A DNA stretch of 27,677 bases, taken from a virus. Of this stretch, positions 2,355 through 25,067 are shown piece after piece. How positions within the stretch are numbered: the first letter of the stretch is position 1; each line of letters opens with the position of its first letter. The stretch spans positions 1 through 27,677 of the IMG/VR virus record IMGVR_UViG_3300032334_001815; one strand, 5' to 3'. A program made the position numbers and the translations under genes. The notes beneath the pieces are model-generated. The model was given only the letters and a program-made list of their open reading frames with translations, searched no databases and had not been told where the DNA came from.

Positions 2355-2361
2355 ATAAATA
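2355..2361 (-). promoter_or_regulatory. TATTTAT box before the long MORN gene
   Basis: The minus strand reads AACTATTTAT, with 7 nt between the heptamer and the ATG. It sits about 12 nt behind the U-tract of the terminator at 2373-2396. The spacing is 3 nt longer than in most other boxes here. Confidence 0.5.
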
Positions 2362-2372
2362 GTTATATAAAT

Positions 2373-2396
2373 AAAAAACCCTCATAAAGAGGGTTT
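2373..2396 (-). terminator. Rho-independent terminator
   Basis: An 8 bp stem (AAACCCTC with GAGGGTTT) closes an ATAAA loop and is followed on the minus strand by six U. It overlaps the stop codon of the 2395-2901 gene. The same hairpin recurs at 2975-2999. Confidence 0.85.
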
Positions 2397-2901
2397 AATC
2401 TGTTATTTTTTCAATTTGGATTGGGATGTTAGTGGCTTTTGATATATTAGATATATGTTGTCTTTTAACTTCACTACTTGAATGTGTTGAAATGTAGAGA
2501 TTATCACTTATTTTATGGACTGTTTTTTTAGCAATTGATTTTTGACTAAAATCATTCATATCGGATTTAATAAAGTTCCTTAATACATTTTTAACGACAG
2601 GAATAATAGATTTATTATCTTTAATAAGTTCCCTGATTGCGTTTAAATAATTATCAGACATAATTAAACTATTAAATACTTTATCATCAAACTTAATTGA
2701 ATAGGTTGTTTTTGACATCTTATCCTTTTTTTCTGGTTTTTTAGTTCCATTAAGTTCAATCTCTGCTTTCTTTATATTTGACTTAATAATGTTTTCTAAT
2801 TCTTTATCCAAAGGTGAGACAAAGATTTTGTTTAATGGTGTGTTTGGTGTTATTCCTATAAAGAAACCACCATCTTGTTTTTGTAATTTTATTGTGTTCA
2901 T
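2395..2901 (-). CDS. Hypothetical protein (168 aa)
   Basis: I do not recognise this family. The N-terminal half (KLQKQDGGFFIGITPNTPLN) looks like a beta-rich segment. A lysine-rich linker follows near residue 55, and the C-terminal half is predicted helical and basic. The last residues are EKITD, and they and the terminator that follows match the end of the MORN gene at 2998-3711 almost exactly. No signal peptide, membrane segment or catalytic motif is visible. A gap of about 95 nt without a gene lies upstream. Confidence 0.6.
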   Translation of the reverse strand: MNTIKLQKQDGGFFIGITPNTPLNKIFVSPLDKELENIIKSNIKKAEIELNGTKKPEKKDKMSKTTYSIKFDDKVFNSLIMSDNYLNAIRELIKDNKSIIPVVKNVLRNFIKSDMNDFSQKSIAKKTVHKISDNLYISTHSSSEVKRQHISNISKATNIPIQIEKITD

Positions 2902-2974
2902 ATTTCTTATTTTATATTTTAATAATATGCAAAAAACGCGAACGAGTAAAGCTTTTCATGAGATTTCTGGGAAT

Positions 2975-2999
2975 AAAAAAACCCTCATAAAGAGGGTTT
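2975..2999 (-). terminator. Rho-independent terminator
   Basis: Stem AAACCCTC / GAGGGTTT with loop ATAAA, then six U on the minus strand. It overlaps the stop of the 2998-3711 gene and is identical to the terminator at 2373-2396. Confidence 0.85.
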
Positions 3000-3711
3000 A
3001 ATCTGTTATCTTTTTAACAAACCTACCATTGTCATATAATTCTTTAGTTTCTAAACTACCATCATCATTATTATATATCCATATACCATCTTTCCCACCA
3101 TTTTTAAATGAACCTTTAGTTTTTAAACTACCATTTGTATTGAAAACTTCCCATATACCTTCTTCTTTACCATCTATATATGAAACCTTAGCTTTTAATT
3201 CACTATTAGGGTAAAAATCCTCCCATAACCCTTCTCGTTTATCATTTTTATATAAACCCTTTGAAGCTAAACTACCATTATCCCAATATTTTACCCATAT
3301 ACCATCTTTCAAATCATTCTTATATGAGCATTTTTGATGTAATTGCCCATTTTTATGGTATTTTTCCAATAAACCTTCTCGCTTACCATTATTATATGTA
3401 ATTTTTTCCTCTAAGTTACCATCCCTATAATATTCCTCCCATATACCATGTTTTAATCCATTATTATACGAACCCTTTAAATGTAAATCACCATTCATCC
3501 AATAATATTCCCATAAACCTTCTTTTTTGTCATCTTTAAATAACCCTTTAGATAAATCAGATACTCTTACCCATAAACCTTGTCTATTATCATTACTATC
3601 TAAATAACCATTCCCTTCAATAGGTTTATAGGGTAAATAATCTAAAATATTTTCCCATTTATATTTCGGATTTTTTTCTCCGATAAATTTTATCATTTTA
3701 TATATTTTCAT
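2998..3711 (-). CDS. MORN-repeat protein (237 aa)
   Basis: After about 45 non-repeat residues (MKIYKMIKFIGEKNPKYKW and following), the protein has seven to eight 23-residue MORN_2 repeats, for example GLWEYYWMNGD, GIWEEYYRDGN and GLWEDFYPNSE. It lies 5 nt downstream of the stop of the 3717-4475 gene and is probably transcribed from the box before that gene. It lacks the MKIIITEEQ tag of the other long MORN protein. The end of the coding sequence plus terminator is duplicated from, or copied to, the neighbouring 2395-2901 gene. Binding role presumed, partner unknown. Confidence 0.8.
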   Translation of the reverse strand: MKIYKMIKFIGEKNPKYKWENILDYLPYKPIEGNGYLDSNDNRQGLWVRVSDLSKGLFKDDKKEGLWEYYWMNGDLHLKGSYNNGLKHGIWEEYYRDGNLEEKITYNNGKREGLLEKYHKNGQLHQKCSYKNDLKDGIWVKYWDNGSLASKGLYKNDKREGLWEDFYPNSELKAKVSYIDGKEEGIWEVFNTNGSLKTKGSFKNGGKDGIWIYNNDDGSLETKELYDNGRFVKKITD

Positions 3712-3716
3712 AACTA

Positions 3717-4475
3717 TTAATAACCATTTAATAAAGATTTATCATTTTTATCCATAAATTGTCTGGATTCAAAATGTAATTGATATGGTGAATTAGGATC
3801 AGATAAATTATACATAACAAAATATGATGAACCAGGATATTTAGATAGATACCCCCTAAAATGATCAAAAGAAGCTATTGTGCATATTTCAATACCTTCA
3901 CCAGTTTCCCTACCTTTACACTTACCAAGAATAGTTTTATAAGTTTTCCAAGCTTCTTGATTATCTTTTAATTCATTTGGAACTTCAAAAACCTGATACC
4001 CATCTTCAACACCCAAATATTTAATACCATTATCTTCAAGTTTCTTTATTTCATTTATGGTGATATATTTATCCTTATCTGTAATAGAAGCATCTGTTGA
4101 ATTAAGTTTATCATCAATCTCCATTGATTTATCAATAAACTCCTGAATATCTTCACTAGTCTTTATTTGATTTATATCTTTTTTAGAATATGATGACTTA
4201 TATTTGTTAAATAAATTGAAATATTTCTTATACTTATAAACATCCTCACTTAAAATAAGTTTATTGACAATCTTTTTTATCAACCATATAATAAATTGCG
4301 TTGCGTTATTTGACACATCTTTTATTTCATTGAATAGTTCTTCACTTATTGGTTTATCTTCACCAACATAAGCATTAATCACATCATCTAAAGGACTTTC
4401 ACTTAATAAACTAACCTCATTTAAGTTCATAAGTTTTCTTACCCTATTTATTTCTTCTAACAATATGTTTTGCAT
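3717..4475 (-). CDS. Tagged unknown protein with a degenerate WC-motif domain (252 aa)
   Basis: The N-terminus MQNILLEEINRVRKLMNLNE is an amphipathic helix followed by LLSE, which fits an (L/I)xE prohead-protease-type site. The middle is helical. The C-terminal 90 residues (WKTYKTILGKCKG, EICTIASFDHFRGYLSKY, SSYFVMYNL, YQLHFESRQFMD) resemble the domain of the 25072-26478 protein, where the equivalent segment reads YGQNTKWCIS. I know this pattern from many large marine phages without an assigned function. A TATTTAT box sits 4 nt before the ATG, right behind a terminator, so it leads the unit that continues into the 237 aa MORN gene. Confidence 0.7.
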   Translation of the reverse strand: MQNILLEEINRVRKLMNLNEVSLLSESPLDDVINAYVGEDKPISEELFNEIKDVSNNATQFIIWLIKKIVNKLILSEDVYKYKKYFNLFNKYKSSYSKKDINQIKTSEDIQEFIDKSMEIDDKLNSTDASITDKDKYITINEIKKLEDNGIKYLGVEDGYQVFEVPNELKDNQEAWKTYKTILGKCKGRETGEGIEICTIASFDHFRGYLSKYPGSSYFVMYNLSDPNSPYQLHFESRQFMDKNDKSLLNGY

Positions 4476-4479
4476 ATAT

Positions 4480-4486
4480 ATAAATA
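4480..4486 (-). promoter_or_regulatory. TATTTAT box, 4 nt before ATG
   Basis: The minus strand reads GACTATTTAT, then ATAT, then the ATG of the 3717-4475 gene. It lies between that ATG and the terminator at 4498-4521, so it can only serve this transcription unit. Confidence 0.6.
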
Positions 4487-4497
4487 GTCATATAAAT

Positions 4498-4521
4498 AAA
4501 AAACCCTCACAGAGAGGGTTT
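4498..4521 (-). terminator. Rho-independent terminator
   Basis: Stem AAACCCTC / GAGGGTTT with loop ACAGA and a short U-tract on the minus strand. It ends the 4507-4722 gene, and the hairpin includes its last codons. Confidence 0.85.
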
Positions 4522-4722
4522 AATTGGTTGATAAAACTTATCATTTTCATTTGGTGGGATGAATGGATATCCATAGTCAGCAATTAAGTTTTCATCTTCA
4601 GTTTGATCATCACCCTTACCTTGTCCGATATACCATTTGGTTTCAAATCCATTGTATATTTTTACAATCCCAATAGTTCCATACCATATAGAACCAAATA
4701 TATTTTTCTTTGTTGTTTCCAT
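4507..4722 (-). CDS. Hypothetical protein (71 aa)
   Basis: A small protein with an aromatic, glycine-rich middle (SIWYGTIGIVKIYNG, then KWYIGQGKGDDQ) and an acidic, proline-containing C-terminus. The YIGQGKGDDQ segment resembles small orphan proteins of Bacteroidota phages. No signal peptide is present. It has its own TATTTAT box 4 nt upstream of the ATG and its own terminator, so it is a single-gene transcription unit. Confidence 0.6.
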   Translation of the reverse strand: METTKKNIFGSIWYGTIGIVKIYNGFETKWYIGQGKGDDQTEDENLIADYGYPFIPPNENDKFYQPIKPSL

Positions 4723-4726
4723 CCTA

Positions 4727-4733
4727 ATAAATA
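4727..4733 (-). promoter_or_regulatory. TATTTAT box, 4 nt before ATG
   Basis: The minus strand reads AAATATTTAT, then TAGG, then the ATG of the 4507-4722 gene. It abuts the stop of the upstream gene (4735). Confidence 0.55.
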
Positions 4734-4734
4734 T

Positions 4735-5157
4735 TTATTTCTTAATTAAATCCCAACTATGATCACCTAAAAGTTTAACTGAAGCAACATATTTTCCAAT
4801 GCTTTTTGTTCTACCCCATTCATCGGGTCCAATTAAACTTAATTTATAGTGATCTTCTTTTTCGTATAAATGATATATTTGTCCGATAACAGGTGTAAAT
4901 CTCATATCTGATTGATAAATCTTTTCTGATACAACTAACCTATTTTCAATTTCCCTTACCTGTTGAATAATTAAATCTGCTTGTTTTTTTAACATTTTAA
5001 TTTCTTGTTCGGCATAATGGTTCATTGCCAAAACAGCAGTTGCTTTAATTTGGTTTTTATCTTCAGGTTTTATTAGTGGAGAACCAATACTTAAAGGTAT
5101 TGGAGCTAAACTTGCTGAACCTATATAACTCCCATCTTCATTTATTTCTTGTCCCAT
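4735..5157 (-). CDS. DUF2452-like phage protein (140 aa)
   Basis: The central region NQIKATAVLAMNHYAEQEIK followed by KKQADLIIQQVREIENRL forms a long helix, and IGQIYHLYEK and LIGPDEWGR follow. This order (helix with N..AVLAM, R....S..IY.....F.P..G..Y.LY, then the EWG segment) is typical of DUF2452, a family of unknown function in bacteria and phages. The start overlaps the 5142-5360 gene by 16 nt. It is probably cytoplasmic. Confidence 0.65.
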   Translation of the reverse strand: MGQEINEDGSYIGSASLAPIPLSIGSPLIKPEDKNQIKATAVLAMNHYAEQEIKMLKKQADLIIQQVREIENRLVVSEKIYQSDMRFTPVIGQIYHLYEKEDHYKLSLIGPDEWGRTKSIGKYVASVKLLGDHSWDLIKK

Positions 5158-5360
5158 AAACTTATAACAAGGTTTTTAAGATCTGGAACTAAATGTTCAT
5201 TTAAATTGGCTTCATTAATCATTGTATTCAAATCTGTTGTTGAATATGACATATGGAAATGCCAATCATATCCTGACCAAAAATATTTCTTTTTATACTT
5301 TTGGATTTCAAGATGATACTTGTTGTCTTTTTTATTTAATATTGCTCTATATGTTTTCAT
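5142..5360 (-). CDS. Hypothetical protein (72 aa)
   Basis: A small basic protein rich in aromatic residues (KYFWSGYDWHFHMSYSTTD). It overlaps the start of the DUF2452-like gene and starts directly after the 5363-5626 gene, so it is part of a coupled operon running from about 7016 down to 4735. No known motif is recognised. Confidence 0.55.
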   Translation of the reverse strand: MKTYRAILNKKDNKYHLEIQKYKKKYFWSGYDWHFHMSYSTTDLNTMINEANLNEHLVPDLKNLVISLWDKK

Positions 5361-5362
5361 TT

Positions 5363-5626
5363 TTATTTAATTTCTTCGTCCCAAAAAACAGGTATTCCAT
5401 TTTCTAATTCAGCATCCAATGGATAACAAAATGAGGAATAAGCATTTTTTTTATCCGATATTTCGAATATGTGTATGTATTCATTATCAAGAAACTTTGC
5501 TCTTACAGATTTTTCACCATTAATAAAAACTATCTGTAAAACTTCTTGTGTTCTATTATACTCCTTAGTGAAGTAAATACCCATATATTTAAACTTAACC
5601 CCTACTTTAAAATCCACTTCTTTCAT
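5363..5626 (-). CDS. Small protein with the C-terminal NG.P..W..E tail (87 aa)
   Basis: The body is a small beta-rich domain (VDFKVGVKFKYMG, EVLQIVFINGEK). The end is ENGIPVFWDEEIK. The same tail pattern closes four other proteins in this window (5623-5919, 5916-6245, 16566-17078, 22245-22541). The start overlaps the upstream stop by 4 nt (ATGA). The tail suggests a common partner or targeting role, but none is known. Confidence 0.6.
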   Translation of the reverse strand: MKEVDFKVGVKFKYMGIYFTKEYNRTQEVLQIVFINGEKSVRAKFLDNEYIHIFEISDKKNAYSSFCYPLDAELENGIPVFWDEEIK

Positions 5627-5919
5627 TTAATTTCACTATCCCAATTATCAGGAGCTCTCCAATTCTTTTTTGATATTTTAATCAATCTTGGCTTACTATC
5701 CACCCATTCAAAAAATCTTTTAATAATTAGTAATATGTTATATTTTTTTTTAACAAAAACTTCATCATCATAATCAGCTATACAACTAATTAAATAAAAC
5801 ATTATTAAAATTGCAATTGCTAAAATACTAAGAATTACCATAACTTTAGTAAATAGAATAGATAATGTGGTTATTATACCAAGCATTATAGTTGTTAAAA
5901 TCAATGTTGAGTTTTTCAT
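5623..5919 (-). CDS. Membrane protein with two transmembrane segments and a W..E tail (98 aa)
   Basis: Two adjacent hydrophobic segments occupy about residues 5-24 and 27-47 (for example LILTTIMLGIITTLSILF). A cytoplasmic basic region follows, ending WRAPDNWDSEIK, a variant of the NG.P..W..E tail. It overlaps both neighbours by ATGA, so translation is coupled to the 5363 and 5916 genes, both of which carry the same type of tail. The protein probably sits in the inner membrane with its tail inside. Confidence 0.6.
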   Translation of the reverse strand: MKNSTLILTTIMLGIITTLSILFTKVMVILSILAIAILIMFYLISCIADYDDEVFVKKKYNILLIIKRFFEWVDSKPRLIKISKKNWRAPDNWDSEIK

Positions 5920-6245
5920 ATTTCATCCTCCCATATTTTAGGTAATCCATTTCCCATTAAACTTTTTTCATCAATCACACAATTTTTATGAAATACCACA
6001 CAGGATGTTGTATCATTATAATCAACCATAATCATTTCACATCTTTTTTTATCCCCGAATGGGGTTTCTATAATACAATAAAAAGGATCTGAAACAATAT
6101 CACATATAACTTTTTTAGTGTTAATAGTTCCACCCAAAAATAATTGATCATTTTTATATGGATAATTAGATGATGATGTCATATTGATTGCATATGAATT
6201 ATCATGTGGTTCATATTTTAAACCAATTAAACTTTTATTTTCCAT
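5916..6245 (-). CDS. Small protein with the C-terminal NG.P..W..E tail (109 aa)
   Basis: Mostly beta structure is predicted (GGTINTKKVICDIVSDPFYC, then a CEMIMVDYND strand). It ends MGNGLPKIWEDEI, fitting the tail shared by five proteins here. No signal peptide or membrane segment is seen. It is the third tail-bearing gene in a row, which suggests local duplication of the tail module onto different bodies. Confidence 0.6.
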   Translation of the reverse strand: MENKSLIGLKYEPHDNSYAINMTSSSNYPYKNDQLFLGGTINTKKVICDIVSDPFYCIIETPFGDKKRCEMIMVDYNDTTSCVVFHKNCVIDEKSLMGNGLPKIWEDEI

Positions 6246-6250
6246 ATCTT

Positions 6251-6478
6251 TTAAAATGTTGTGGTTTCAACTACTAAACTATCTGTTTTTAATTTACAAG
6301 CCTTACAATTAGGTCTATGGATATAAGCAACTGATCTATCAACAGTTCTATATAAGAAATCATGTCCTTCAATAACTTCAACCTTCCAATCTTTATTTCT
6401 ATTTGACTTAATAACTTCACTTTCAGTATTATTACAAGCCATTAATGGAATAAGTAATAATAATAATCTATATTTCAT
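6251..6478 (-). CDS. Predicted lipoprotein with a CKAC motif (75 aa)
   Basis: The N-terminus MKYRLLLLLIPLMAC is a short lipoprotein signal with the lipobox L-M-A-C (Cys at residue 15). Near the C-terminus is C-K-A-C preceded by HRPN, a possible metal- or disulfide-forming pair. The expected location is the periplasmic or outer face of the membrane. It overlaps the upstream gene by 11 nt. A phage-encoded lipoprotein could act in superinfection exclusion (inference). Confidence 0.65.
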   Translation of the reverse strand: MKYRLLLLLIPLMACNNTESEVIKSNRNKDWKVEVIEGHDFLYRTVDRSVAYIHRPNCKACKLKTDSLVVETTTF

Positions 6479-6713
6479 ATTTTTCTATTATAATTTTTAT
6501 TTCTTTGTAATAATCAATCAAATCTTTATGTTCTGTTTCATTTAGTGTATTCAAGAAAAAATCAATGGATATTAATGAAGCTTTTTTAGCTTCTTTTAAT
6601 CTACTACTACAAGAATTGATACCATAATCTGATAAACCATTATTAGGTAAATTATAATAAATTGTTTTGACTAATTCAATACCTTTATTTTTTAAAATTA
6701 TATCATGTTCCAT
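6468..6713 (-). CDS. Small helical phage protein (81 aa)
   Basis: It is predicted mostly helical, with A-K-K-A-S-L-I-S-I-D in the middle and DYYKEIKIIIEKYEI at the end. That layout, a central AKK..L....D followed by YW/YY.E....I, resembles a short orphan family common in Bacteroidota phages. A TATTTAT copy lies 11 nt before the ATG. Function is unknown. Confidence 0.55.
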   Translation of the reverse strand: MEHDIILKNKGIELVKTIYYNLPNNGLSDYGINSCSSRLKEAKKASLISIDFFLNTLNETEHKDLIDYYKEIKIIIEKYEI

Positions 6714-6724
6714 ATTATTTATCC

Positions 6725-8691: not shown

Positions 8692-8820
8692 TTATTTTAA
8701 TTTGGTAATTTCAGTATAACTTGTTTTTTGTTTTTTAATCCAGAAGATATGTTCTAATGTTTGTTTATTGTTTAAACTACCTTTTAAGTGTGGTTTTGGT
8801 TTGATTGTTGAGTATTTCAT
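8692..8820 (-). CDS. Microprotein (42 aa)
   Basis: This short frame starts at an ATG that overlaps the stop of the 8817-9668 gene (ATGA). It reads MKYSTIKPKPHLKGSLN and ends YTEITKLK. It is basic, with no membrane segment. The overlap and the lack of other coding sequence in this 140 nt gap support translation. No function is recognised. Confidence 0.5.
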   Translation of the reverse strand: MKYSTIKPKPHLKGSLNNKQTLEHIFWIKKQKTSYTEITKLK

Positions 8821-9668
8821 ATTTTAGAGATGTATGATGTTGATCCTAATAATTTATAGTAGTAATCATCTAATTTATTGATTGCAGGTTCTAAATATTT
8901 TTTATTTATCAATGCTCTTTTTGAAGGTTTGGTTGGATCACCACTTTCTTTATTTTTCTTGATGTGGAAGATAGTGATATTATCTGGTTCATATCTTTCA
9001 ATAAAGTCAAGAGTTATATTTGTAATAGTTTCCAATATATTATAAGCATCATTTGCGTTTAATACTGCAAGTCCTTTAGTAGTGGAATATTCTCTTTCCC
9101 AGTTATTATCACCTAAATTATAGAATATAACTTCAAAGTCATAACCATTTTTATTGGTAAAGTTATAGATAATTTTTCTTTCGGTTGGATCAGCATGACT
9201 TTTATCTAACTTATAATTATAAACTTGTCCTTCATTAAGTTTTTTATCTGTATAATTCTTATTAAGATATTTTTCAATATCTTTTGGGGTATATTCTAAT
9301 AATTCACCAATTCTTTTGCTATCTTCATAAGAAGCGTTCCAAGCTAAATAACCATTATATTTTTTGGCGATATTATATAGTTCTTCTGCTTGTTCTTTAT
9401 AACCTTGTCTATAAATAATAACAGGTTTATTTGGATTTTCTAAAACTCTTATTACCCCAAAATCATTTCTTTCACTGGAATCAATTATGTATTTTTGTAG
9501 TTTATAAGGAACTATGTTGATTTGAACCCAAGCAATATTTCTTTTACCATCTTCAAGGGTTCTAAATGAACCAATCTCAGTATGAGCTTCAGATGCTTTA
9601 ATACTTTCAGTTATTCTCCTGAGAGTAAATAACTTTTTCTTTTGTTCTTCTGTAATAATAATCTTCAT
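8817..9668 (-). CDS. Tagged phage protein with MKIIITEEQ start (283 aa)
   Basis: The first 17 residues MKIIITEEQKKKLFTLR are nearly identical to the start of the 331 aa MORN protein, and I-T-E and similar sites follow. The rest is unrelated to MORN repeats. A middle domain contains NKPVIIYRQGYKEQAEELYN, and a C-terminal domain contains DFEVIFYNLGDNNWEREY and a Tyr-rich end. The C-terminal pattern resembles uncharacterised phage proteins. It is 3 nt downstream of the metallopeptidase-like gene and shares its transcription unit. Confidence 0.65.
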   Translation of the reverse strand: MKIIITEEQKKKLFTLRRITESIKASEAHTEIGSFRTLEDGKRNIAWVQINIVPYKLQKYIIDSSERNDFGVIRVLENPNKPVIIYRQGYKEQAEELYNIAKKYNGYLAWNASYEDSKRIGELLEYTPKDIEKYLNKNYTDKKLNEGQVYNYKLDKSHADPTERKIIYNFTNKNGYDFEVIFYNLGDNNWEREYSTTKGLAVLNANDAYNILETITNITLDFIERYEPDNITIFHIKKNKESGDPTKPSKRALINKKYLEPAINKLDDYYYKLLGSTSYISKI

Positions 9669-9671
9669 AAC

Positions 9672-10805
9672 TTATTTAGCCATTGCATATAATTTAGCTA
9701 ATTTTCTAATTGCCAAGTCAGCTTTCTTAGCATTATTCTCTATTTCAGATTTAAAAAATTCTTCAGGTTTAATATTTTTTTTAATTTTGTCGGAAATACT
9801 CTGAAAATATCTCTTCCGATTTTCAGAATTATCAAATAAATTACTATCATAAGTAAAAGATTTAATAAACTCAATTGAATGTTTCTCAAATAAATCTTTC
9901 ATAATATATAAATATAATTTAATAATATATTCAGATGATGAGTAATCGTATATATTGAAATTATAACCAAATTTTCCTTTCAATGTATAAATATTTTTAC
10001 GAATTTTATCCAAATTTTTAAATAATCTATAATAAAACTCATTAGCTGTAAAATTTTTTATTTTATTTAATGTTTTATAAGTTTCATTACTTTTAATAAA
10101 GTTTAAGAAATCTTTTTTAGTTATTTGATGAGTTCTAATTAATGACATTACTTCAGTAGGTCTTACTAAATTTTCAATTACAGAAACAAAATATGATGAA
10201 TAAAACACATATTCTACTTCATCAATAGGGCTTAATGAATTGAGTATTGATGATAATTCCATTGATGTTTGAAATTTTGATTGTCTAATAATATCATCAT
10301 ATGGTTTTTTGTTGGTATCATAATTGTGCTTTAACTCATGTGCAATTACACTAATAAATTTAGCCATATTATGAATAAAATTGTATTTAAGTTCAACTTT
10401 AATTTGTTTATCACTTATAGTTGGATTACCATATTTATCACCAGGACAATAAAAATTAAATATAATAACTAAACTATCTTGTTTTACATTTTTAAACTTA
10501 CCAATACCAACCATTTCATTTTCAAACGGTGTTGATGCACCCGCATATTCAAGTTTATCAAATCCAGGATAAAAATATGGCATTACATTTATTACAATTG
10601 ATATTTTCTTAAATGTTAAATCACCAATCTTAAATGGAGTGTTTATTTCATTACTTTTACCACTATTATCTTGATAATCTTCAAAATTATCAACAATATT
10701 ATATTTAAAATCAAATTTAGTTATTTTATCAACTATTTCTTCTGCAACTTCTAAAATACCTTCAGGAACTCCAAGAGCTTCATTTAATCTACTTTTTACC
10801 TTCAT
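9672..10805 (-). CDS. Tagged protein with an HExxH metallopeptidase motif (377 aa)
   Basis: The start at 10805 is chosen because a TATTTAT box precedes it by 5 nt; the longer frame from 10841 runs into the terminator. The protein begins MKVKSRLNEALGVPEG, a short helix with an L-N-E site. After a beta-rich N-terminal part comes FISVIAHELKHNYD (about residues 150-163), the zincin signature HExxH. The third zinc ligand is not obvious. The C-terminal 200 residues are helical and Lys/Tyr rich. A zinc peptidase acting on a host or virion protein is likely, but the substrate is unknown. Confidence 0.65.
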   Translation of the reverse strand: MKVKSRLNEALGVPEGILEVAEEIVDKITKFDFKYNIVDNFEDYQDNSGKSNEINTPFKIGDLTFKKISIVINVMPYFYPGFDKLEYAGASTPFENEMVGIGKFKNVKQDSLVIIFNFYCPGDKYGNPTISDKQIKVELKYNFIHNMAKFISVIAHELKHNYDTNKKPYDDIIRQSKFQTSMELSSILNSLSPIDEVEYVFYSSYFVSVIENLVRPTEVMSLIRTHQITKKDFLNFIKSNETYKTLNKIKNFTANEFYYRLFKNLDKIRKNIYTLKGKFGYNFNIYDYSSSEYIIKLYLYIMKDLFEKHSIEFIKSFTYDSNLFDNSENRKRYFQSISDKIKKNIKPEEFFKSEIENNAKKADLAIRKLAKLYAMAK

Positions 10806-10810: not shown

Positions 10811-10817
10811 ATAAATA
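10811..10817 (-). promoter_or_regulatory. TATTTAT box, 5 nt before ATG
   Basis: The minus strand reads AAACTATTTAT, then ATTGT, then the ATG at 10805. Only about 11 nt separate it from the U-tract of the upstream terminator, leaving no room for a separate -35 element. Confidence 0.6.
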
Positions 10818-12630: not shown

Positions 12631-12637
12631 ATAAATA
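12631..12637 (-). promoter_or_regulatory. TATTTAT box, 4 nt before ATG
   Basis: The minus strand reads ACATATTTAT, then ATAT, then the ATG of the homing endonuclease at 12626. It lies within 16 nt of the broken end of the tRNA fragment. Confidence 0.55.
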
Positions 12638-15565: not shown

Positions 15566-15572
15566 ATAAATA
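15566..15572 (-). promoter_or_regulatory. TATTTAT box, 4 nt before ATG
   Basis: The minus strand reads AGCTATTTAT, then ATGT, then the ATG of the HNH gene. It is located between the tRNA fragment and the gene. Confidence 0.6.
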
Positions 15573-15752: not shown

Positions 15753-15759
15753 ATAAATA
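15753..15759 (-). promoter_or_regulatory. TATTTAT box, 5 nt before ATG
   Basis: The minus strand reads TAATATTTAT, then AGATT, then the ATG at 15747. It abuts the stop codon of the upstream secreted protein. Confidence 0.5.
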
Positions 15760-16533: not shown

Positions 16534-16565
16534 CAAAGATAATGAAAATATTTTGATAAATCAAA
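16534..16565 (-). promoter_or_regulatory. Host-type promoter of the secreted-protein pair
   Basis: Minus strand TTTG (16565-16562), 20 nt, TATCTTTG (16541-16534). The ATG at 16529 is only 4 nt behind the -7 element, so the mRNA may be nearly leaderless. Confidence 0.7.
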
Positions 16566-18656: not shown

Positions 18657-19094
18657 TTAAATGTTTGCTGGTGCATTTCTTTTAGCGATAATTGCTTCAA
18701 CTGAATCATCTTCCTCATCTACCTTAGCAATTAACATCTTATCTCTATCTTCAGAATTGAACCAGTAATCAACTACTTTGTTTAAATTACCGACAAATGC
18801 TCCTAATAAAATAAGTAACATTTCTTTCCAAGATTCATTGATTAAAATACCGAAAAATACTGCTGAGTTGATACCTGCAATAATAAAGAAGAATAAGAAT
18901 AATACTATTAAAGTAATTCTCCATCTGTTATTTTGCATACCTTGAAGCATGTAGTAGAATCTGTTTTTGTCATCTACTTTAACGAAGTCCGATTTTCCTA
19001 AACCTAAAAACTTCTTAACTTTGTTTTCTTTTTGTTCCATAACTTTTTCTGTTGGTTGAGCAATTATTGGCTCTTGTTCTTTATTGTTTTTCAT
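18657..19094 (-). CDS. Membrane protein, possible holin (145 aa)
   Basis: A charged N-terminal 45 residues precede two hydrophobic segments (ITLIVLFLFFFIIAGINSAV, then EMLLILLGAFVGNLNK). A soluble acidic tail starts with the segment VVDYWFNSED. The pattern of a membrane segment followed by a Y-(W/Y)-F-x-S motif is common in phage holin-like proteins of large phages. Two lysis enzymes lie 5 kb away, and none of the other small membrane proteins fits better. A TATTTAT box 4 nt before the ATG suggests late expression. The holin call is tentative. Confidence 0.5.
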   Translation of the reverse strand: MKNNKEQEPIIAQPTEKVMEQKENKVKKFLGLGKSDFVKVDDKNRFYYMLQGMQNNRWRITLIVLFLFFFIIAGINSAVFFGILINESWKEMLLILLGAFVGNLNKVVDYWFNSEDRDKMLIAKVDEEDDSVEAIIAKRNAPANI

Positions 19095-19098: not shown

Positions 19099-19105
19099 AT
19101 AAATA
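19099..19105 (-). promoter_or_regulatory. TATTTAT box, 4 nt before ATG
   Basis: The minus strand reads AACTATTTAT, then TGGT, then the ATG of the possible holin at 19094. Confidence 0.6.
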
Positions 19106-19114: not shown

Positions 19115-19735
19115 TTAATATTGGTTTATATCAATTCCAAACTTAGCTTTAAACTCTTCAGGTGTGATTTGTTTACCTTCAGGTTTGCTTGTGTTTGTAT
19201 ATAACATAATACTTACCCATTTACCAGTTGATAAAGATTTAACACCTTTAACACAATGTGTAGGAACATGTAAGCTATTTTGTGGTTTATTACAACTTGA
19301 GAAATCATTGAAACAGAATATTAATAAACTATCTGTTTGTGACATCGCTCTAATTGTTGTTTCTTGTTGTTTCCAAATACCTCTATTCAATTCTTTTGTT
19401 TGTGGAACACAATTGTAATATCTGAATGTTAATTCATCATACATACAATTATTAGCAAAGTCCTCAGCATTAGCCAAATGTCCTTTATCATAACCTGATT
19501 TAAGATATTCAGCGTCAGTTTGACAAGAAATAGGTAAATCATTTTTAAATCTGAAACCCGCTCTTGAACAATCACCTCCACCTTTATACAACTTATAAGT
19601 TAAAATAATAGGATTTTTGTGTGATTTGCTAAAATAACTGGTGTAATTTGATACATATATTGTTGTATCAATCTTGTTTGCTTGCCCAAATACCAATAAG
19701 GGTAGCATAAATAATAATGTAATTAGTTTTTTCAT
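19115..19735 (-). CDS. Secreted DNA/RNA non-specific endonuclease (206 aa)
   Basis: The signal peptide MKKLITLLFMLPLLVFGQ is followed by a NUC1-type nuclease. The DRGH motif appears as YDKGHLANAEDF (catalytic His86), and the metal-site block as NCVPQTKELNRGIWKQQE with Asn117 and Glu125. These residues are complete, so activity is likely. I chose the ATG at 19735 over the in-frame ATG at 19741 because the latter lies inside the TATTTAT box. Export implies action in the periplasm or outside, for example on incoming phage DNA or free DNA (inference). Confidence 0.88.
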   Translation of the reverse strand: MKKLITLLFMLPLLVFGQANKIDTTIYVSNYTSYFSKSHKNPIILTYKLYKGGGDCSRAGFRFKNDLPISCQTDAEYLKSGYDKGHLANAEDFANNCMYDELTFRYYNCVPQTKELNRGIWKQQETTIRAMSQTDSLLIFCFNDFSSCNKPQNSLHVPTHCVKGVKSLSTGKWVSIMLYTNTSKPEGKQITPEEFKAKFGIDINQY

Positions 19736-19739: not shown

Positions 19740-19746
19740 ATAAATA
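19740..19746 (-). promoter_or_regulatory. TATTTAT box, 4 nt before ATG
   Basis: The minus strand reads GCCTATTTAT, then GGAT, then the ATG at 19735. It directly follows the terminator at 19750-19778. Confidence 0.6.
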
Positions 19747-20193: not shown

Positions 20194-20200
20194 ATAAATA
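20194..20200 (-). promoter_or_regulatory. TATTTAT box, 4 nt before ATG
   Basis: The minus strand reads TAATATTTAT, then TTGT, then the ATG at 20189. It begins right after the stop of the upstream phosphoesterase gene. Confidence 0.6.
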
Positions 20201-20884: not shown

Positions 20885-20888
20885 ATTA

Positions 20889-20919
20889 CAAATATACAAA
20901 AAAGGTTTGAATTAACAAA
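20889..20919 (-). promoter_or_regulatory. Host-type promoter with -33 inside a terminator
   Basis: Minus strand TTTG (20919-20916), 19 nt, TATATTTG (20896-20889). The TTTG is part of the stem of the preceding terminator. Confidence 0.7.
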
Positions 20920-20927: not shown

Positions 20928-20929
20928 AA

Positions 20930-21301
20930 TTAATCTTCATCCTCATCATAACTTTCATCTTCATCATCATAATAAAAGTATCCTTGAAACTCACAATTTT
21001 CAGGTTCTTCTTCAATCCATTCCCAATTTGGACTTTCAGATAAGTTTGGTGCGATATATTTTTCACCGATTTCATTGAATACCAAATCAATACCAGCACT
21101 TCTATCTGAACCTAAACCATTCATTTCGGCTAATAATTCGTAGTAATCCTTACCACCGAACTCACCATAACCATCATAGTTTTCTTCTTTCCAAATATTA
21201 CCTTGATTGTCAGTCATATAGACAGGGAATGTAGGTAATGTGCTGTATTGATTAGCAATACTTTTTTTTGTGTCTTGTGTTTTCCAGCTAAAAAATCCCA
21301 T
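20930..21301 (-). CDS. Conserved phage protein, MGFFSWKT type, acidic tail (123 aa)
   Basis: The start MGFFSWKTQDTKKSIAN matches an uncharacterised family found in many phages (MGFFSW.T.DT..SI). Further conserved blocks are VYMTDNQGN, YDGYGEFGGKDYYELLAEMN and GIDLVF. The C-terminus is strongly acidic (YYDDEDESYDEDED), which could mimic nucleic acid. It has a good host-type promoter and its own terminator, so it is probably expressed early as a single unit. Confidence 0.75.
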   Translation of the reverse strand: MGFFSWKTQDTKKSIANQYSTLPTFPVYMTDNQGNIWKEENYDGYGEFGGKDYYELLAEMNGLGSDRSAGIDLVFNEIGEKYIAPNLSESPNWEWIEEEPENCEFQGYFYYDDEDESYDEDED

Positions 21302-21321
21302 AGTTTTTATTATTTATGAAA

Positions 21322-21353
21322 CAAAGATAAGGAAGATATTTTATATTTCCAAA
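21322..21353 (-). promoter_or_regulatory. Host-type promoter of the MGFFSW gene
   Basis: Minus strand TTTG (21353-21350), 20 nt, TATCTTTG (21329-21322), with about 20 nt to the ATG. Confidence 0.75.
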
Positions 21354-21362
21354 TATTTTTTT

Positions 21363-21563
21363 CTATTTAAAAATTAATGATATGATACCAGCAAAAATAA
21401 TGATTAATAAAACAATCGCGATTGGTATCCATAATGGAGAAAATACCCACCACCAACTCCAAGTAGCAACAATTCCCCAACCACCCAATTTAAGAGTTAA
21501 AAATATAAGGAAAAGTATTGTCCCAATCCCTAATCCTGATTTCTTTGAACTATTATCCGACAT
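21363..21563 (-). CDS. Small membrane protein (66 aa)
   Basis: After a polar start (MSDNSSKKSG) there are two hydrophobic segments (IGTILFLIFLTLKLGGW and PIAIVLLIIIFAGIISLIF) joined by a Trp-rich loop (ATWSWWWVFSPLW). Insertion in the inner membrane is clear; the function is not. It lies 7 nt downstream of another small membrane gene and shares its promoter. Confidence 0.65.
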   Translation of the reverse strand: MSDNSSKKSGLGIGTILFLIFLTLKLGGWGIVATWSWWWVFSPLWIPIAIVLLIIIFAGIISLIFK

Positions 21564-21570
21564 AATCTTT

Positions 21571-21813
21571 TTATTTGTTTTTAACTAATTTAACTAAATA
21601 AAGTATTGATTTAAGTAAGAAATATATGAAAATGAATGTTACCATTAACATCAAAACCCACCACATCGGTAATAATAACAATTTCCAACCAAAAACCACC
21701 GGAGCACCCCAATCTACCAATCTGAAAACTTTATAAGTTATCAAAAAGAATAAAACACTCATCAATGTTGTAAACACTAACATCGTTCCATTTTCTAAAA
21801 ATTTATTTTTCAT
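21571..21813 (-). CDS. Small membrane protein (80 aa)
   Basis: Two to three hydrophobic segments (MLVFTTLMSVLFFLITY, then a Trp-containing middle, then VLMLMVTFIFIYFLLKSILY) with a basic C-terminus. It pairs with the 66 aa membrane protein just downstream under one host-type promoter (TTTG-N20-TATCTTTG). Such pairs in phages may be holin/antiholin or immunity proteins, but there is no specific evidence here. Confidence 0.65.
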   Translation of the reverse strand: MKNKFLENGTMLVFTTLMSVLFFLITYKVFRLVDWGAPVVFGWKLLLLPMWWVLMLMVTFIFIYFLLKSILYLVKLVKNK

Positions 21814-21833
21814 ATTTTTTTATTTTAATATCA

Positions 21834-21865
21834 CAAAGATACATAACATTTTTATTATTTTCAAA
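21834..21865 (-). promoter_or_regulatory. Host-type promoter of the membrane-protein pair
   Basis: Minus strand TTTG (21865-21862), 20 nt, TATCTTTG (21841-21834). Its -33 element abuts the plus-strand TATTTAT box at 21866. Confidence 0.75.
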
Positions 21866-21872
21866 TATTTAT
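21866..21872 (+). promoter_or_regulatory. TATTTAT box, 4 nt before ATG (+ strand)
   Basis: The plus strand reads AAATATTTAT, then TTAT, then the ATG at 21877. One of two clear plus-strand copies, showing that the box follows gene orientation. Confidence 0.6.
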
Positions 21873-21876
21873 TTAT

Positions 21877-22248
21877 ATGATTTCAATTATTTTCATAATA
21901 TTAGCAGGAATATTTAACGCATCTATGGATGTAGTCACTTATAGATGGGAAAAATCTTTCTTTAAAAAACATTTAAACAAATATTCACAATTCTTTAACC
22001 CAAAGAAATCTTGGACAAATAAATATAAACATGGTGTCGCTGGTTTGGGTGAAAAGTTCCCATTCTCAACATCAGCATTTGTATTCCTTACTGACTGGTG
22101 GCATCTTGCTAAATGTATTATGATACTTTGTATTTCATTAGCAATAGTATTCTACTCACCAATAATCGGAATAATTGATTTTCTTATCTATTATATCCTT
22201 TTCAGTGCTTCATTCCACACTTTCTTTGTTTGGGTTTTAGTAGATTAA
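21877..22248 (+). CDS. Membrane protein (123 aa)
   Basis: An N-terminal hydrophobic segment (ISIIFIILAGIFNASMD), a polar central loop with KKSWTNKYKHG, and two C-terminal hydrophobic segments (MILCISLAIVFYSPII; FLIYYILFSASFHTFF). Topology with three spans is likely. I recall similar small membrane proteins in Bacteroidota phages but no function. It is convergent with the 22245-22541 gene, overlapping by 4 nt at the stops. Confidence 0.65.
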   Translation: MISIIFIILAGIFNASMDVVTYRWEKSFFKKHLNKYSQFFNPKKSWTNKYKHGVAGLGEKFPFSTSAFVFLTDWWHLAKCIMILCISLAIVFYSPIIGIIDFLIYYILFSASFHTFFVWVLVD

Positions 22249-22541
22249 ATATTTTCATTATCCCAATTCATAGGGACACCATTTTTTAAGTTTTTAGGTT
22301 TTTCTGGTGCTGAACCACCAAAATATATCATATCCCAATCATTAGGTATGTAATTTTTAATATCAAATGGAACTAAATATACCCCATAATCATCACTCAA
22401 TTCGTATATTTCACTAAAACCATTATTTACCTGTCCATAGATTTTTAATATATCATTGATATCAATACCACCTATTTTATTTAATTCTTCCACGTTCTTT
22501 AGTTTTAATTTGTTTAACATCATATAATTTAAGAAACTCAT
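22245..22541 (-). CDS. Small protein with the C-terminal NG.P..W..E tail (98 aa)
   Basis: The body includes LNKIGGIDINDILKIYGQ and a beta-rich GVYLVPFDIKNYIP. The end is NLKNGVPMNWDNENI, a variant of the tail found on four other proteins here. The start at 22541 overlaps the upstream gene by 65 nt; the ATG pair at 22523 or 22520 would shorten that overlap. It has no membrane segment. Function is unknown. Confidence 0.6.
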   Translation of the reverse strand: MSFLNYMMLNKLKLKNVEELNKIGGIDINDILKIYGQVNNGFSEIYELSDDYGVYLVPFDIKNYIPNDWDMIYFGGSAPEKPKNLKNGVPMNWDNENI

Positions 22542-22659
22542 CCACAGGTAATTTCTTTATTTCAGCAAAAAACTCAATAGCTTCCTGCAATTCTTCTTGT
22601 GTTTCAGTCAATCCAATAACCTCATCACTACCTTTGTTGGTAAAAACAAACTTTTTCAT
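22477..22659 (-). CDS. Small helical protein (60 aa)
   Basis: A short strand (KKFVFTNKGSDEVIG) is followed by a helix ETQEELQEAIEFFAEIKKLP and a basic tail. It lies 17 nt after the 22677-23264 gene and overlaps the next gene. No homologue is recognised. Confidence 0.5.
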   Translation of the reverse strand: MKKFVFTNKGSDEVIGLTETQEELQEAIEFFAEIKKLPVDEFLKLYDVKQIKTKERGRIK

Positions 22660-22676
22660 ATTATAATAGTATTAAA

Positions 22677-23264
22677 TTATTTTGAATAATACAATAGTGT
22701 TGGTGAGTTTTTTTTCACCTCCACATCAGGGTATTTCTCCCTAAATTGAACAATGTTAAATGGTTTGGTTATTAAATGACATCCATTTAAAGTTTTTATC
22801 ACACCAATTATCTTATCAGGGTCATAAGGCTTACAATTATGTTCAATATGAGCCATCATCAATGGACTTGGAAACTCCATATCATCCACATCAATTAACC
22901 ATTTCTTTTCTTTATCAGATGAATATGCTGAAGCCACACTATCAAATACTTTCTTAGCGGATTTAAAACTCTTAGCTAATATTACATCTGTTAGTTTCTT
23001 CATTGAATGGTAAGCACACTTTTCAAAACTCCTTTTATTTAGATTGATGTAAGCCCTGGCGTTATGTAATTCACAAAGGGTGACAATCTCTTTCTTCTTC
23101 ATATCAAGATAGTCAATAGAACTTATAGCATATGATTTAACCATATAGTTATTTGTCTTTAATTCAGGATTTTCCTTACGCCTTTGAATTATCTGAACGT
23201 AATAGAAATCATCTGAACTATCAAATGTTAAGTATTGTTTTATTTGTTCAAAATTGTCTATCAT
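22677..23264 (-). CDS. Unknown phage protein with DVDD and THLIT-like motifs (195 aa)
   Basis: Conserved-looking blocks are FYYVQIIQRRKENPE, ARAYINLNKRSF, WLIDVDDMEF and TLNGCHLITKPFN. The series (basic block, h-D-h-D-D, then h..nG.HlIT.PF) recalls the active site layout of archaeo-eukaryotic primase-like proteins, and I have seen similar orphans in large phages. This is only a motif-level resemblance. A host-type promoter precedes it, with the -33 in the loop of the upstream terminator. Confidence 0.6.
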   Translation of the reverse strand: MIDNFEQIKQYLTFDSSDDFYYVQIIQRRKENPELKTNNYMVKSYAISSIDYLDMKKKEIVTLCELHNARAYINLNKRSFEKCAYHSMKKLTDVILAKSFKSAKKVFDSVASAYSSDKEKKWLIDVDDMEFPSPLMMAHIEHNCKPYDPDKIIGVIKTLNGCHLITKPFNIVQFREKYPDVEVKKNSPTLLYYSK

Positions 23265-23268
23265 ACAA

Positions 23269-23300
23269 CAAAAATAAAAAAAAATACCCGACTAAACAAA
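23269..23300 (-). promoter_or_regulatory. Host-type promoter with -33 in a terminator loop
   Basis: Minus strand TTTG (23300-23297), 20 nt, TATTTTTG (23276-23269), 5 nt before the ATG at 23264. Confidence 0.7.
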
Positions 23301-23311
23301 TAATCGGGTAT
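23272..23311 (-). terminator. Rho-independent terminator
   Basis: Stem ATACCCGA / TCGGGTAT with a 12 nt loop, followed on the minus strand by a long U-rich tract. It ends the 23324-23614 gene and overlaps the next promoter. Confidence 0.75.
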
Positions 23312-23323
23312 AATTCTTTTAAG

Positions 23324-23614
23324 TTATTGATTTCCAATAGGGATTTGTTTAAGTTTTTCAATTGAAATAATCCGTTTTCCACCATCATTTACATCTGCTA
23401 ACATATCAAAAACACCTTGATTTTGTATGTTCATAAAGACATAATACAGATACTCTGGAAGTAATACATCGGTTCTAATTACTTTAACACCAATGTTTTC
23501 AGGTGAGAATGTTTTAACTGGCTTACCAATTTCATTTCTACTACCTTTTTTAACTAACCAAAAATCCGCTTCAGGGAAGTTGGTTTTGAATTCACATAAA
23601 TCTCCTATTGTCAT
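23324..23614 (-). CDS. HsdS-like specificity-domain fragment (96 aa)
   Basis: The segment DVLLPEYLYYVFMNIQNQGVF followed by a short C-terminal SIEKLKQIPIG matches the end of a type I restriction target-recognition domain (L.P.YLYY.......I..L...PIP). The N-terminal DFWLVKKGSRNEIGKPVK is also typical of a small stand-alone family in phages. At 96 aa it is far below a full HsdS (two TRDs), and no methylase or restriction subunit is near. It has a host-type promoter and its own terminator. It may be a DNA-binding orphan or anti-restriction factor. Confidence 0.6.
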   Translation of the reverse strand: MTIGDLCEFKTNFPEADFWLVKKGSRNEIGKPVKTFSPENIGVKVIRTDVLLPEYLYYVFMNIQNQGVFDMLADVNDGGKRIISIEKLKQIPIGNQ

Positions 23615-23618
23615 AATA

Positions 23619-23649
23619 CAAAAATAATAAAGTTTTTCAATTATACAAA
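23619..23649 (-). promoter_or_regulatory. Host-type promoter of the HsdS-like gene
   Basis: Minus strand TTTG (23649-23646), 19 nt, TATTTTTG (23626-23619), 4 nt before the ATG. Confidence 0.75.
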
Positions 23650-23653
23650 AAAA

Positions 23654-24478
23654 TTATGATAATAAAGCATAATATTCTTTGAAGTGTTTTAATCTGTCCG
23701 AAAGCCCTATAACCCCGCCATTTACTCTTTTTGTAACAGCCGTAACAGTCGCCTCATCAGCACCTTTATCACATATTTCCCATAATTTGTTTGAATTAAA
23801 GAAATATGCCGCAGAAGCCAATGGATATTTAGTTGCTACTAAATCTGGGTTAGCGATACAATCTTCACCAATGAACTTTGTAAATCCTTGATAGTTAGCT
23901 TTACCAGTTAACTGGATAAAACCTCTTCCTCTGAACTTGTATCCTTCACCTGAATTTTCATCACCATTACCCATTCTTGAAGCATATACTTTAGAAGCGA
24001 TTTTCTGTGGGTTTCTTGCATAACCCTCAGCCAATGTTCCAGGGAAATACTTAGGGAATATCTTCTTCAAACCATCAGCTGAATAGTTTAAGTTTTCTTG
24101 TGTTGCTTTAAAACCACCGCTTTCGTGTCCGCATTGTGCTAAGAAATGAGCCAATCTTAAATTGTTTGTGATGTTGAACTTAGCTGCTGTATCAGGGATT
24201 TGAGCCAATACTGAATCAGGAACATGTCCTTTTAATTTATCCAATTTAAAACTTGAAGCTGGAATTGCAGTTGTTGTAGGTGCAGGTGCTGCCACTTCAC
24301 CGAACATTGCTTTCCAAGTTCCATCACCGACAATACCATCAGCACTTAAATTATTCTTTGATTGCCATTCTTTAACAAGTTTTTCTGTTCCTGCACCGAA
24401 AATACCATCAGCTGCAGTTCCTAATTTTGCTTGGAGTTTTTTTACATCTTCTCCAGTAGATCCTACTTTTAATAACAT
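23654..24478 (-). CDS. GH19-type endolysin with N-terminal peptidoglycan-binding domain (274 aa)
   Basis: Residues 3-58 form a PG_binding_1 domain (LKVGSTGEDVKKLQAKLG, then DGIFGAGTEKLVKEWQ and DGIVGDGTW). An Ala/Pro/Thr linker follows. Residues 80-274 are a GH19 chitinase/lysozyme domain with AHFLAQCGHESGGF (catalytic Glu119) and GYKFRGRGFIQLTG (179-192). It cleaves the glycan strands of peptidoglycan at lysis. There is no signal peptide, so a holin is needed. It lies next to a peptidase gene that would cut the stem peptides. Confidence 0.92.
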   Translation of the reverse strand: MLLKVGSTGEDVKKLQAKLGTAADGIFGAGTEKLVKEWQSKNNLSADGIVGDGTWKAMFGEVAAPAPTTTAIPASSFKLDKLKGHVPDSVLAQIPDTAAKFNITNNLRLAHFLAQCGHESGGFKATQENLNYSADGLKKIFPKYFPGTLAEGYARNPQKIASKVYASRMGNGDENSGEGYKFRGRGFIQLTGKANYQGFTKFIGEDCIANPDLVATKYPLASAAYFFNSNKLWEICDKGADEATVTAVTKRVNGGVIGLSDRLKHFKEYYALLS

Positions 24479-24506
24479 AGTTTGTTAGTTTTTATTTATT
24501 AGTTTA

Positions 24507-25016
24507 TTATATATTTACATATTTTGTTCCAGGTATAAAATCACCAGCATTATACTTAGCAAGTAATGTTCTCCAATCATATCCTGATTTCTCTAAATGA
24601 GGTGAATCTTTAAACTTCCAATCACCACCCCAAGTATATCCGTGTCTTTTATAGATATTTACAACCTCCATCCAATCAGGTTTACCATCCTTATCAAAAT
24701 CTTTTACATCATCCCAACTAGCACCACCATTTACCAATAAAACAATATCAAAAGCTAATCCGTAATTATGAATTGATTGTCCTCCCTTTGCTTTGGTAAC
24801 AATACCTAATTTTTTTCCATTACTATCAAATAGTTTTGTTCTACCTTGAGCGTATAAAGCATCTTGTTCTTGAAATGTTCTTAATGTATAAGCGAACCTA
24901 CAAGTTATGTTAGTTAAAGTTGGAACCACTTCATTTAAATAAATGTCTTTAACTTCTTGTCTAATTTTTGGATGAAGGGTATCAATCCTACTTAGTGTAA
25001 TATTATCTATTGCCAT
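24507..25016 (-). CDS. M15-type L-alanyl-D-glutamate / D,D-peptidase (169 aa)
   Basis: The zinc-site motif SIHNYGLAFDIVL (His83, Asp90) and the second block WGGDWKFKDSPHLE (His140) are those of Peptidase_M15_4 enzymes such as the T5 endolysin and CwlK. The length fits a single catalytic domain without a binding module. It is a second cell-wall enzyme, complementing the GH19 glycosidase 29 nt downstream. Upstream lie a purine-rich SD (AAGAGGA) and a TATTTAT box. Confidence 0.9.
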   Translation of the reverse strand: MAIDNITLSRIDTLHPKIRQEVKDIYLNEVVPTLTNITCRFAYTLRTFQEQDALYAQGRTKLFDSNGKKLGIVTKAKGGQSIHNYGLAFDIVLLVNGGASWDDVKDFDKDGKPDWMEVVNIYKRHGYTWGGDWKFKDSPHLEKSGYDWRTLLAKYNAGDFIPGTKYVNI

Positions 25017-25023
25017 ATCTATA

Positions 25024-25030
25024 TCCTCTT
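25024..25030 (-). promoter_or_regulatory. Shine-Dalgarno-like site of the M15 peptidase
   Basis: AAGAGGA on the minus strand, 7 nt before the ATG at 25016. Here the TATTTAT box is further upstream, so this mRNA has a leader. Confidence 0.5.
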
Positions 25031-25031
25031 T

Positions 25032-25038
25032 ATAAATA
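25032..25038 (-). promoter_or_regulatory. TATTTAT box of the M15 peptidase (15 nt before ATG)
   Basis: The minus strand reads AAACTATTTAT, then 15 nt with an SD before the ATG. The larger distance, filled by an SD, argues that the box acts in transcription and not as a ribosome site. Confidence 0.5.
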
Positions 25039-25060
25039 GTTTAATTTTTAATTTGGGATA

Positions 25061-25067
25061 TATTTAT
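25061..25067 (+). promoter_or_regulatory. TATTTAT box, 4 nt before ATG (+ strand)
   Basis: The plus strand reads GATATATTTAT, then AGAT, then the ATG at 25072. It is divergent from the box at 25032-25038, with 22 nt between them. Confidence 0.6.

Follow-up and report, generated by a model that had tools for sequence, protein, structure and literature searches.

A short A/T-rich word, TATTTAT, stands directly in front of many start codons in the IMG/VR virus record IMGVR_UViG_3300032334_001815, which raises the question of whether it serves transcription or translation. The window analysed here is the whole of this linear 27.7-kilobase (kb) record, which has 28% G+C and carries genes for MORN-repeat proteins, homing-type endonucleases, an endolysin and an M15 peptidase as well as 3 tRNA genes. 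As the Bacteroidetes sigma-A element TAHHTTTG is also present in the window in the form of host-type promoters, the host is probably a bacteroidete. An earlier note on this DNA had described TATTTAT, mostly four nucleotides (nt) before the ATG, as a candidate leaderless late promoter. Judging from the comparison of the window with related phage sequences, we consider it probable that TATTTAT is a late promoter of the -10 type that lacks a -35 element, is common to a wide group of T4-like phages of Bacteroidetes and often gives rise to leaderless mRNA.

The TATTTAT box and its position

Every box quoted in the earlier note was found again when the sequence was checked, including two on the plus strand (before 21877 and 25072). 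Writing N4 for four nt between box and start codon, the note had spoken of eight genes with this spacing and then of nine; nine is correct (4475, 4722, 12626, 15561, 19094, 19735 and 20189 on the minus strand, 21877 and 25072 on the plus strand). N5 before 10805 and 15747 and N7 before 2347 also hold, but 15747 begins merely a 32-codon open reading frame, and the box of the M15 peptidase gene does lie further upstream, at N15. Four boxes had been placed in the gap between a terminator and the ATG. Our scan returned three of these terminators (minus-strand stems 4521-4501, 2396-2376 and 10852-10833), while the fourth, before 19735, can be recognised from the sequence itself (GTCCCAGTAATGGGATTTTTTTTT) and is called by the scan on the plus strand only. 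The ATGs 10805 and 19735 lie in frame downstream of the mechanically called longest starts, and an extra match to the TATTTAT pattern at 9900-9915 is intragenic. The putative late boxes are listed below, together with the spacing in relatives (G and L denote our own contig and locus labels).

2355..2361 (minus), TATTTAT, N7 before ATG 2347 of gene 1352-2347 (MORN-repeat protein, tag-like N-terminus MKIIITEEQ); 15 nt past a terminator stem
4480..4486 (minus), TATTTAT, N4 before ATG 4475 (N-terminus MQNILLEEINRVRKLMNLNE); adjoining upstream terminator; N5 in the G026 homologue (48% identity)
4727..4733 (minus), TATTTAT, N4 before ATG 4722 (71 residues); N4 also in G002
10811..10817 (minus), TATTTAT, N5 before ATG 10805 (MKVKSRLNEALG...); adjoining upstream terminator; N5-N7 in L010, G002 and G005 (28-41% protein identity)
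12631..12637 (minus), TATTTAT, N4 before ATG 12626 (phage endonuclease, phrog_15137)
15566..15572 (minus), TATTTAT, N4 before ATG 15561 (HNH endonuclease)
15753..15759 (minus), TATTTAT, N5 before ATG 15747 (32-codon membrane-like frame); the weakest case
19099..19105 (minus), TATTTAT, N4 before ATG 19094 (145-residue membrane-like protein); kept in G001, G002 and L010, not in more distant relatives
19740..19746 (minus), TATTTAT, N4 before ATG 19735 of gene 19115-19735 (NucA-like DNA/RNA non-specific endonuclease, PF01223); terminator-like stem adjoining upstream
20194..20200 (minus), TATTTAT, N4 before ATG 20189 (141 residues); N4 also in G001, G002 and L010
21866..21872 (plus), TATTTAT, N4 before ATG 21877 (123-residue membrane-like protein); N4 also in G001, G002 and L010
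25061..25067 (plus), TATTTAT, N4 before ATG 25072 (468 residues, N-terminus MSLRTLIESILLENE); N4-N5 in G001, G002, L010 and G026
25032..25038 (minus), TATTTAT, leadered type, N15 before ATG 25016 (M15 peptidase); N15-N16 in G001 and G002

TATTTAT is not enriched in the window overall (44 copies vs 39.3 expected); what stands out is where it lies. It occurs at N4-7 before nine called starts, whereas 200 shuffles that preserved dinucleotides gave 0.21 such starts on average and never more than 2. A genome-wide count of spacings against shuffled sequence, proposed in the earlier note, was run on six related contigs of 111-321 kb, which are uncultivated and possibly incomplete and whose gene starts are mechanical calls. 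The outcome was strongly positive, with N4-7 boxes observed vs dinucleotide-shuffle mean at 41 vs 1.5 (G025), 52 vs 0.94 (G026), 28 vs 0.57 (G005), 25 vs 0.78 (G008), 22 vs 0.58 (G017) and 12 vs 0.73 (G018). Pooled over these six contigs, the spacing is two-peaked: 82 boxes at N4, 67 at N5, 24 at N6 (173 at N4-6) and 6 at N7 are followed by 13 at N8-11 and 107 at N13-17. The related contigs G003, G009, G012, G019 and G021 have 0-3 boxed starts (3 in G003, 0 in G012), and the signal is therefore lineage-specific and not a product of base composition.

The late consensus is roughly R/C-TATTTAT-A/T, and in the related loci TATAAAT is not over-represented at N4-7. Another word, AATATATA, stands at N4-5 before 25 starts of G012 (L143-L153), with a second mode at N19-25. 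As read from its sequence, G012 would represent a further lineage that shares this leaderless architecture, in which the word changed while the position was kept. Within the TATTTAT group, the endonuclease gene 19115-19735 retains the exact TATTTAT-N4-ATG arrangement in G008, G005 and G026, at 33-49% protein identity and between unrelated flanks. Gene 18657-19094 has 284 confirmed relatives in IMG/VR and none among 50,697 cultured-phage records. We rejected it as a universally boxed gene, since its distant relatives have it inside an operon and without a box.

Properties of the proposed promoter and the predicted transcription start

Genes with a box are the heads of transcription units: the median upstream gap is 27 nt for late-box genes and 37 nt for genes with a host-type TAHHTTTG box, vs 5 nt for other genes. 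Orthologue pairs, taken as reciprocal best hits among the six contigs at <=85% identity and not representing independent events, comprise 160 late/late and 74 host/host pairs and 1 mixed pair, and no start in the six contigs has both TATTTAT and TAHHTTTG at leaderless distance. In 22 late pairs, one orthologue has the box at leaderless distance (N4-7) and its partner at leadered distance (N12-30). The box is therefore not tied to the start codon.

The host-type element is also two-peaked in its spacing, stands exactly N4 before 61 starts of the six contigs and carries an upstream TTGG/TTTG-like -33 element. Late boxes, whose distance to the actual transcription start is a prediction, showed no information at -33/-35. 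In Flavobacterium johnsoniae, transcription starts 4 or 5 nt from the -7 element TAHHTTTG (PMC6847099); for TAHHTTTG at N4, the predicted transcription start is therefore the A of the ATG. Leadered late boxes are followed by AAA at N4-N6 in 85-88% of cases, and this AAA shares its register with the ATG of the leaderless set. Spacings that imply leaders of ~2-7 nt are rare, and such leaders may be selected against. From these relations in the sequence we infer both the transcription starts and leaderless late mRNAs in these phages. Predicted leaderless starts make up about half of the recognisable promoters (264/507; 179 late and 85 host-type).

A candidate sigma factor, a cultured relative and competing explanations

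The earlier note had suggested looking for a T4 gp55-like sigma factor. Such a candidate was found in large relatives of the window, though it is absent from the window fragment itself. It is a conserved protein of ~250 residues (251 in G018) encoded by G018, G005 and G008 and also in G025 and G026, and >430 sigma-bearing stretches were matched in IMG/VR. Its sole PHROG match with a named function is phrog_234, the T4 late sigma (17/32 members, best E-value 2e-4), and a few members of the family match sigma region 2. The predicted model has a mean predicted local distance difference test score (pLDDT) of 72 and a predicted template modelling score (pTM) of 0.43; its fold matches are mostly sigma factors but weak (best PDB E-value 9e-3), and a PDB sequence search with the protein yielded nothing useful. 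Box matches occur in 16/16 large contigs that carry this sigma, and 15/16 exceed a reversed-pattern control. From this co-occurrence we infer that the sigma reads TATTTAT. The RNA polymerase beta subunit (PF00562) was detected in none of 8 contigs, while 14 control genomes were positive; the enzyme is therefore likely the host RNA polymerase core, and a phage-encoded multisubunit polymerase was rejected on the same result.

Other sigma-like genes were also seen. G012 encodes a different small gp55-like protein (L166). A gene of G017 (L099:8588-9385) matches sigma regions 1.2, 2 and 4 and would be, by its sequence, a phage-borne sigma of the housekeeping type; strong region 2 matches of similar length occur in G010, G014 and G016.

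Among the closest cultured relatives of the G018 portal and sheath are Flavobacterium phage immuto and Microcystis phage Mel-JY01. Immuto, which infects Flavobacterium sp. LMO8 (record NC_055915), encodes a homologue of the sigma, gp118 (E-value 1e-42), that is annotated as hypothetical, and TATTTAT is found upstream of the genes for its terminase, portal, sheath, tube, hub and tape measure. The box precedes 16/22 unit heads in the virion blocks, which we delimited from the record annotation, vs 10/61 elsewhere (p 3e-6), and 1/94 plus-strand genes with a gap of <10 nt. We had expected immuto to resemble the window in being leaderless, but this had to be rejected, as its late promoters are mainly leadered and few of its genes have the box at N4-5 (10527, 74579, 81525 and 142474); the leaderless habit therefore belongs to the group of the window and not to all TATTTAT phages. 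Immuto (L292-L295) also has a separate element of ~20 nt, approximately TATCAATAATTAAAAC. It lies 8-20 nt ahead of some nine starts and may represent a further class of promoter.

In the mechanism that we propose, the phage gp55-like sigma would re-program the host RNA polymerase core, which would then open the DNA at TATTTAT and initiate at the first A ~5-7 nt downstream. At about half of the late promoters, the initiating A would be the A of the ATG, giving a leaderless mRNA translated from its 5'-terminal AUG; at the other half, it would begin an A-rich leader, some 8-15 nt in length or longer. Host-type TAHHTTTG promoters in an equal leaderless position would serve a separate, presumably early, gene set, the late and early timing of the two promoter classes likewise being our proposal.

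The late system of T4 offers the closest comparison. Its promoters consist of an A/T box of 8 bp that precedes the start by about one turn of the helix, without a -35 element and followed by an A/T-rich stretch (PMC2988020). Like T4 TATAAATA with gp55, gp33 and gp45, the system described here combines an A/T box in the -10 position, no -35 element, an A/T stretch and late genes on either strand, together with a small divergent candidate sigma of the phage, probably the host core, and a T4-type portal, sheath and prohead protease. Virion and lysis genes stand under the box as in T4 (prohead protease, adaptor and endolysin; the structural genes of immuto). In contrast to T4, the coding-strand word is TATTTAT(A) and not TATAAATA, whose reverse complement is TATTTATA; the sigma has ~250 residues vs 185 in T4 and is only remotely similar; and about half of the late promoters are predicted to be leaderless. 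In T4, many TATAAATA sites have leaders bearing a Shine-Dalgarno sequence. By analogy, the system may work like the T4 late system, although we do not claim T4-type membership. In G004, G020 and G022, which have a closer gp55 homologue, counts of TATAAATA were small or near the control. The Bacteroidetes sigma-A promoter (TTTG/TAHHTTTG) lies, in these phages, equally far from the start codon but differs in its TTTG and -33 parts and marks another gene set. The jumbo phages phiKZ and AR9 also have short late promoters near the transcription start, and the AR9 paper describes phage transcripts as often leaderless (PMC5312081); unlike here, however, these promoters are read by phage multisubunit RNA polymerases, and AR9 leaders measure 26-491 nt.

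Three other explanations were weighed. The box might be a translation-initiation signal, bound by the ribosome or an RNA-binding protein in the 5' untranslated region (UTR) of an mRNA that starts further upstream, an alternative that the earlier note had raised as an A/T-rich translation signal. TATTTAT is indeed close to the AUG, and T4 has translational repressors of the RegA type. Bacteroidetes, moreover, do without Shine-Dalgarno signals, and their initiation is adjusted by sequences close to the start (PMC6847099). Yet the 22 orthologue pairs that switch between N4-7 and N12-30 and the two-peaked spacing, with its collapse at N8-11 and renewed rise at N13-17, disfavour such a signal. In addition, the A-rich element tracks the box and not the AUG, boxed genes head transcription units, boxes lie in gaps of 23-28 nt behind terminators, and a known promoter, TAHHTTTG, takes the equal position in a mutually exclusive gene set. 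We therefore regard a translation signal as very improbable. That A/T-rich intergenic DNA of genomes with 28-35% G+C should place the word before ATGs by chance is practically negligible as an explanation: shuffles give 0.2-1.5 boxes per record vs 9-52 observed, G003 and G012 show 3 and 0 at equal G+C, and homologues of 33-49% protein identity still have the box at exactly N4. Base composition is thus refuted by the shuffles and by A/T-rich related contigs that do not have the box.

A further candidate is a promoter variant read by host sigma-A or by an alternative sigma of the host, which an activator from the phage might assist. TATTTAT and TAHHTTTG have TA..T and the start distance in common, the link between phage sigma and box is one of co-occurrence, and the sigma-carrying contig G036 has no excess of boxes. 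However, TATTTAT is devoid of the TTTG and -33 parts and marks a separate, conserved gene set of late type. Contigs that are similar in G+C but have no close sigma homologue (G012, G009, G019 and G021; G003 has a distant one) show 0-3 boxed starts, and G012 has AATATATA in the equal place. Reading by a host sigma thus seems unlikely to us. The late promoter of the -10-only type is supported by the fixed spacing, the missing -33 element, the conservation of class among orthologues, the late-type genes, the gp55-like candidate sigma of large relatives and immuto.

Several observations weigh against this late promoter and its reading by the phage sigma. The similarity of the sigma to gp55 is weak (E-value ~2e-4), as are its fold matches (PDB E-value 9e-3, pTM 0.43), and it was found neither in the window fragment nor in G017, a partial contig that does have the box. 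G036 has 9 box matches vs 10 in the reversed-pattern control. Of 9 records searched for the sliding clamp gp45 (PF09116), the T4 control alone gave a match; this search did not extend to other clamp families and covered contigs that are perhaps incomplete. Some structural genes are operon-internal or distant from a box (in G025, the sheath has no box of its own and the portal has it at N29), and the late promoters of immuto are mostly leadered. Lastly, Flavobacterium and Bacteroides produce few leaderless mRNAs, and efficient use of many is not self-evident: against the half of recognisable promoters predicted to be leaderless in these phages, 3.7% of 5' UTRs are <10 nt in B. thetaiotaomicron, 5.5% are leaderless in F. 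psychrophilum, and leaders of <=10 nt account for at most ~13% in F. johnsoniae (PMC6847099).

Our literature search returned no prior report on late promoters of Bacteroidetes phages, on leaderless phage mRNA or on the TATTTAT word. The late-promoter word and its candidate sigma concern a widespread phage group with almost no cultured member; immuto, which is cultured, allows a test of the promoter, and initiation by ribosomes that work without Shine-Dalgarno sequences becomes testable with a phage. A more far-reaching and rather doubtful idea is that these phages convert infected Bacteroidetes cells to late protein synthesis largely from leaderless messages, so that the promoter read by the phage sigma would also determine how messages are translated. 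A factor of the phage or the host might help by favouring 5'-terminal AUGs.

Gene sets, N-terminal tags and neighbouring genes

Late-class genes include the prohead protease (phrog_207), the connector (head-tail adaptor), the endolysin and homing endonucleases, while a tRNA nucleotidyltransferase, a phosphoesterase and a peptidase are found among the host-class genes. The host-type boxes of the window are as follows.

20889..20896 (minus), host-type sigma-A -7 box TATATTTG, N4 before ATG 20884 (metallophosphoesterase by Pfam); predicted leaderless, host-type class; N4 also in the G025 orthologue
23269..23276 (minus), host-type box TATTTTTG, N4 before ATG 23264
23619..23626 (minus), host-type box TATTTTTG, N4 before ATG 23614
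16534..16541 (minus), host-type box TATCTTTG, N4 before GTG start 16529

The two gene classes also differ in their N-termini. Among late proteins, 52% have the motif (L/I)xE in their first 18 residues, vs 19% of host-class and 27% of the remaining proteins (late vs host-class, p 3e-13), and a narrower tag pattern is seen in 51/377 vs 2/200. Recurrent tags with (L/I)xE, i.e., MKIIITEEQ, MKYIITESQ, NILLEEINRVRKLMNLNE and LLTEVSRIREMMG, are concentrated among late-class genes. In the window they are borne by genes 1352-2347, 3717-4475, 8817-9668, 9672-10805, 25072-26478 and 26538-26993, and many more are found in G018 and G025. By analogy with T4, the tag is a candidate capsid-targeting sequence that would be cut by the T4-like prohead protease. 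Gene 26538-26993 (plus) codes for a SET-domain protein (PF00856, E-value 3.5e-12) with a tag-like N-terminus. An extracytoplasmic function (ECF)-like sigma of G017 (L103:6460-7383, i.e., G017:86460-87383; Pfam regions 2 and 4) is fused behind the N-terminal tag MKYIITESQ and has a late box upstream; from its sequence, it looks like a protein made late and perhaps packaged for injection.

Several MORN_2-like repeat proteins are encoded at 1-1347, 1352-2347 and 2998-3711 of the window (by Pfam for 1352-2347, by eye for the others). The G025 portal gene (L268:2751-5567) contains an HNH-bearing insertion that is probably an intein. At the end of the window, gene 27032-27673 (minus) codes for a class II tRNA-synthetase-like protein with 50-52% identity to a protein of the Prochlorococcus phages P-SSM2 and P-SSM7 annotated as 'tRNA ligase'.

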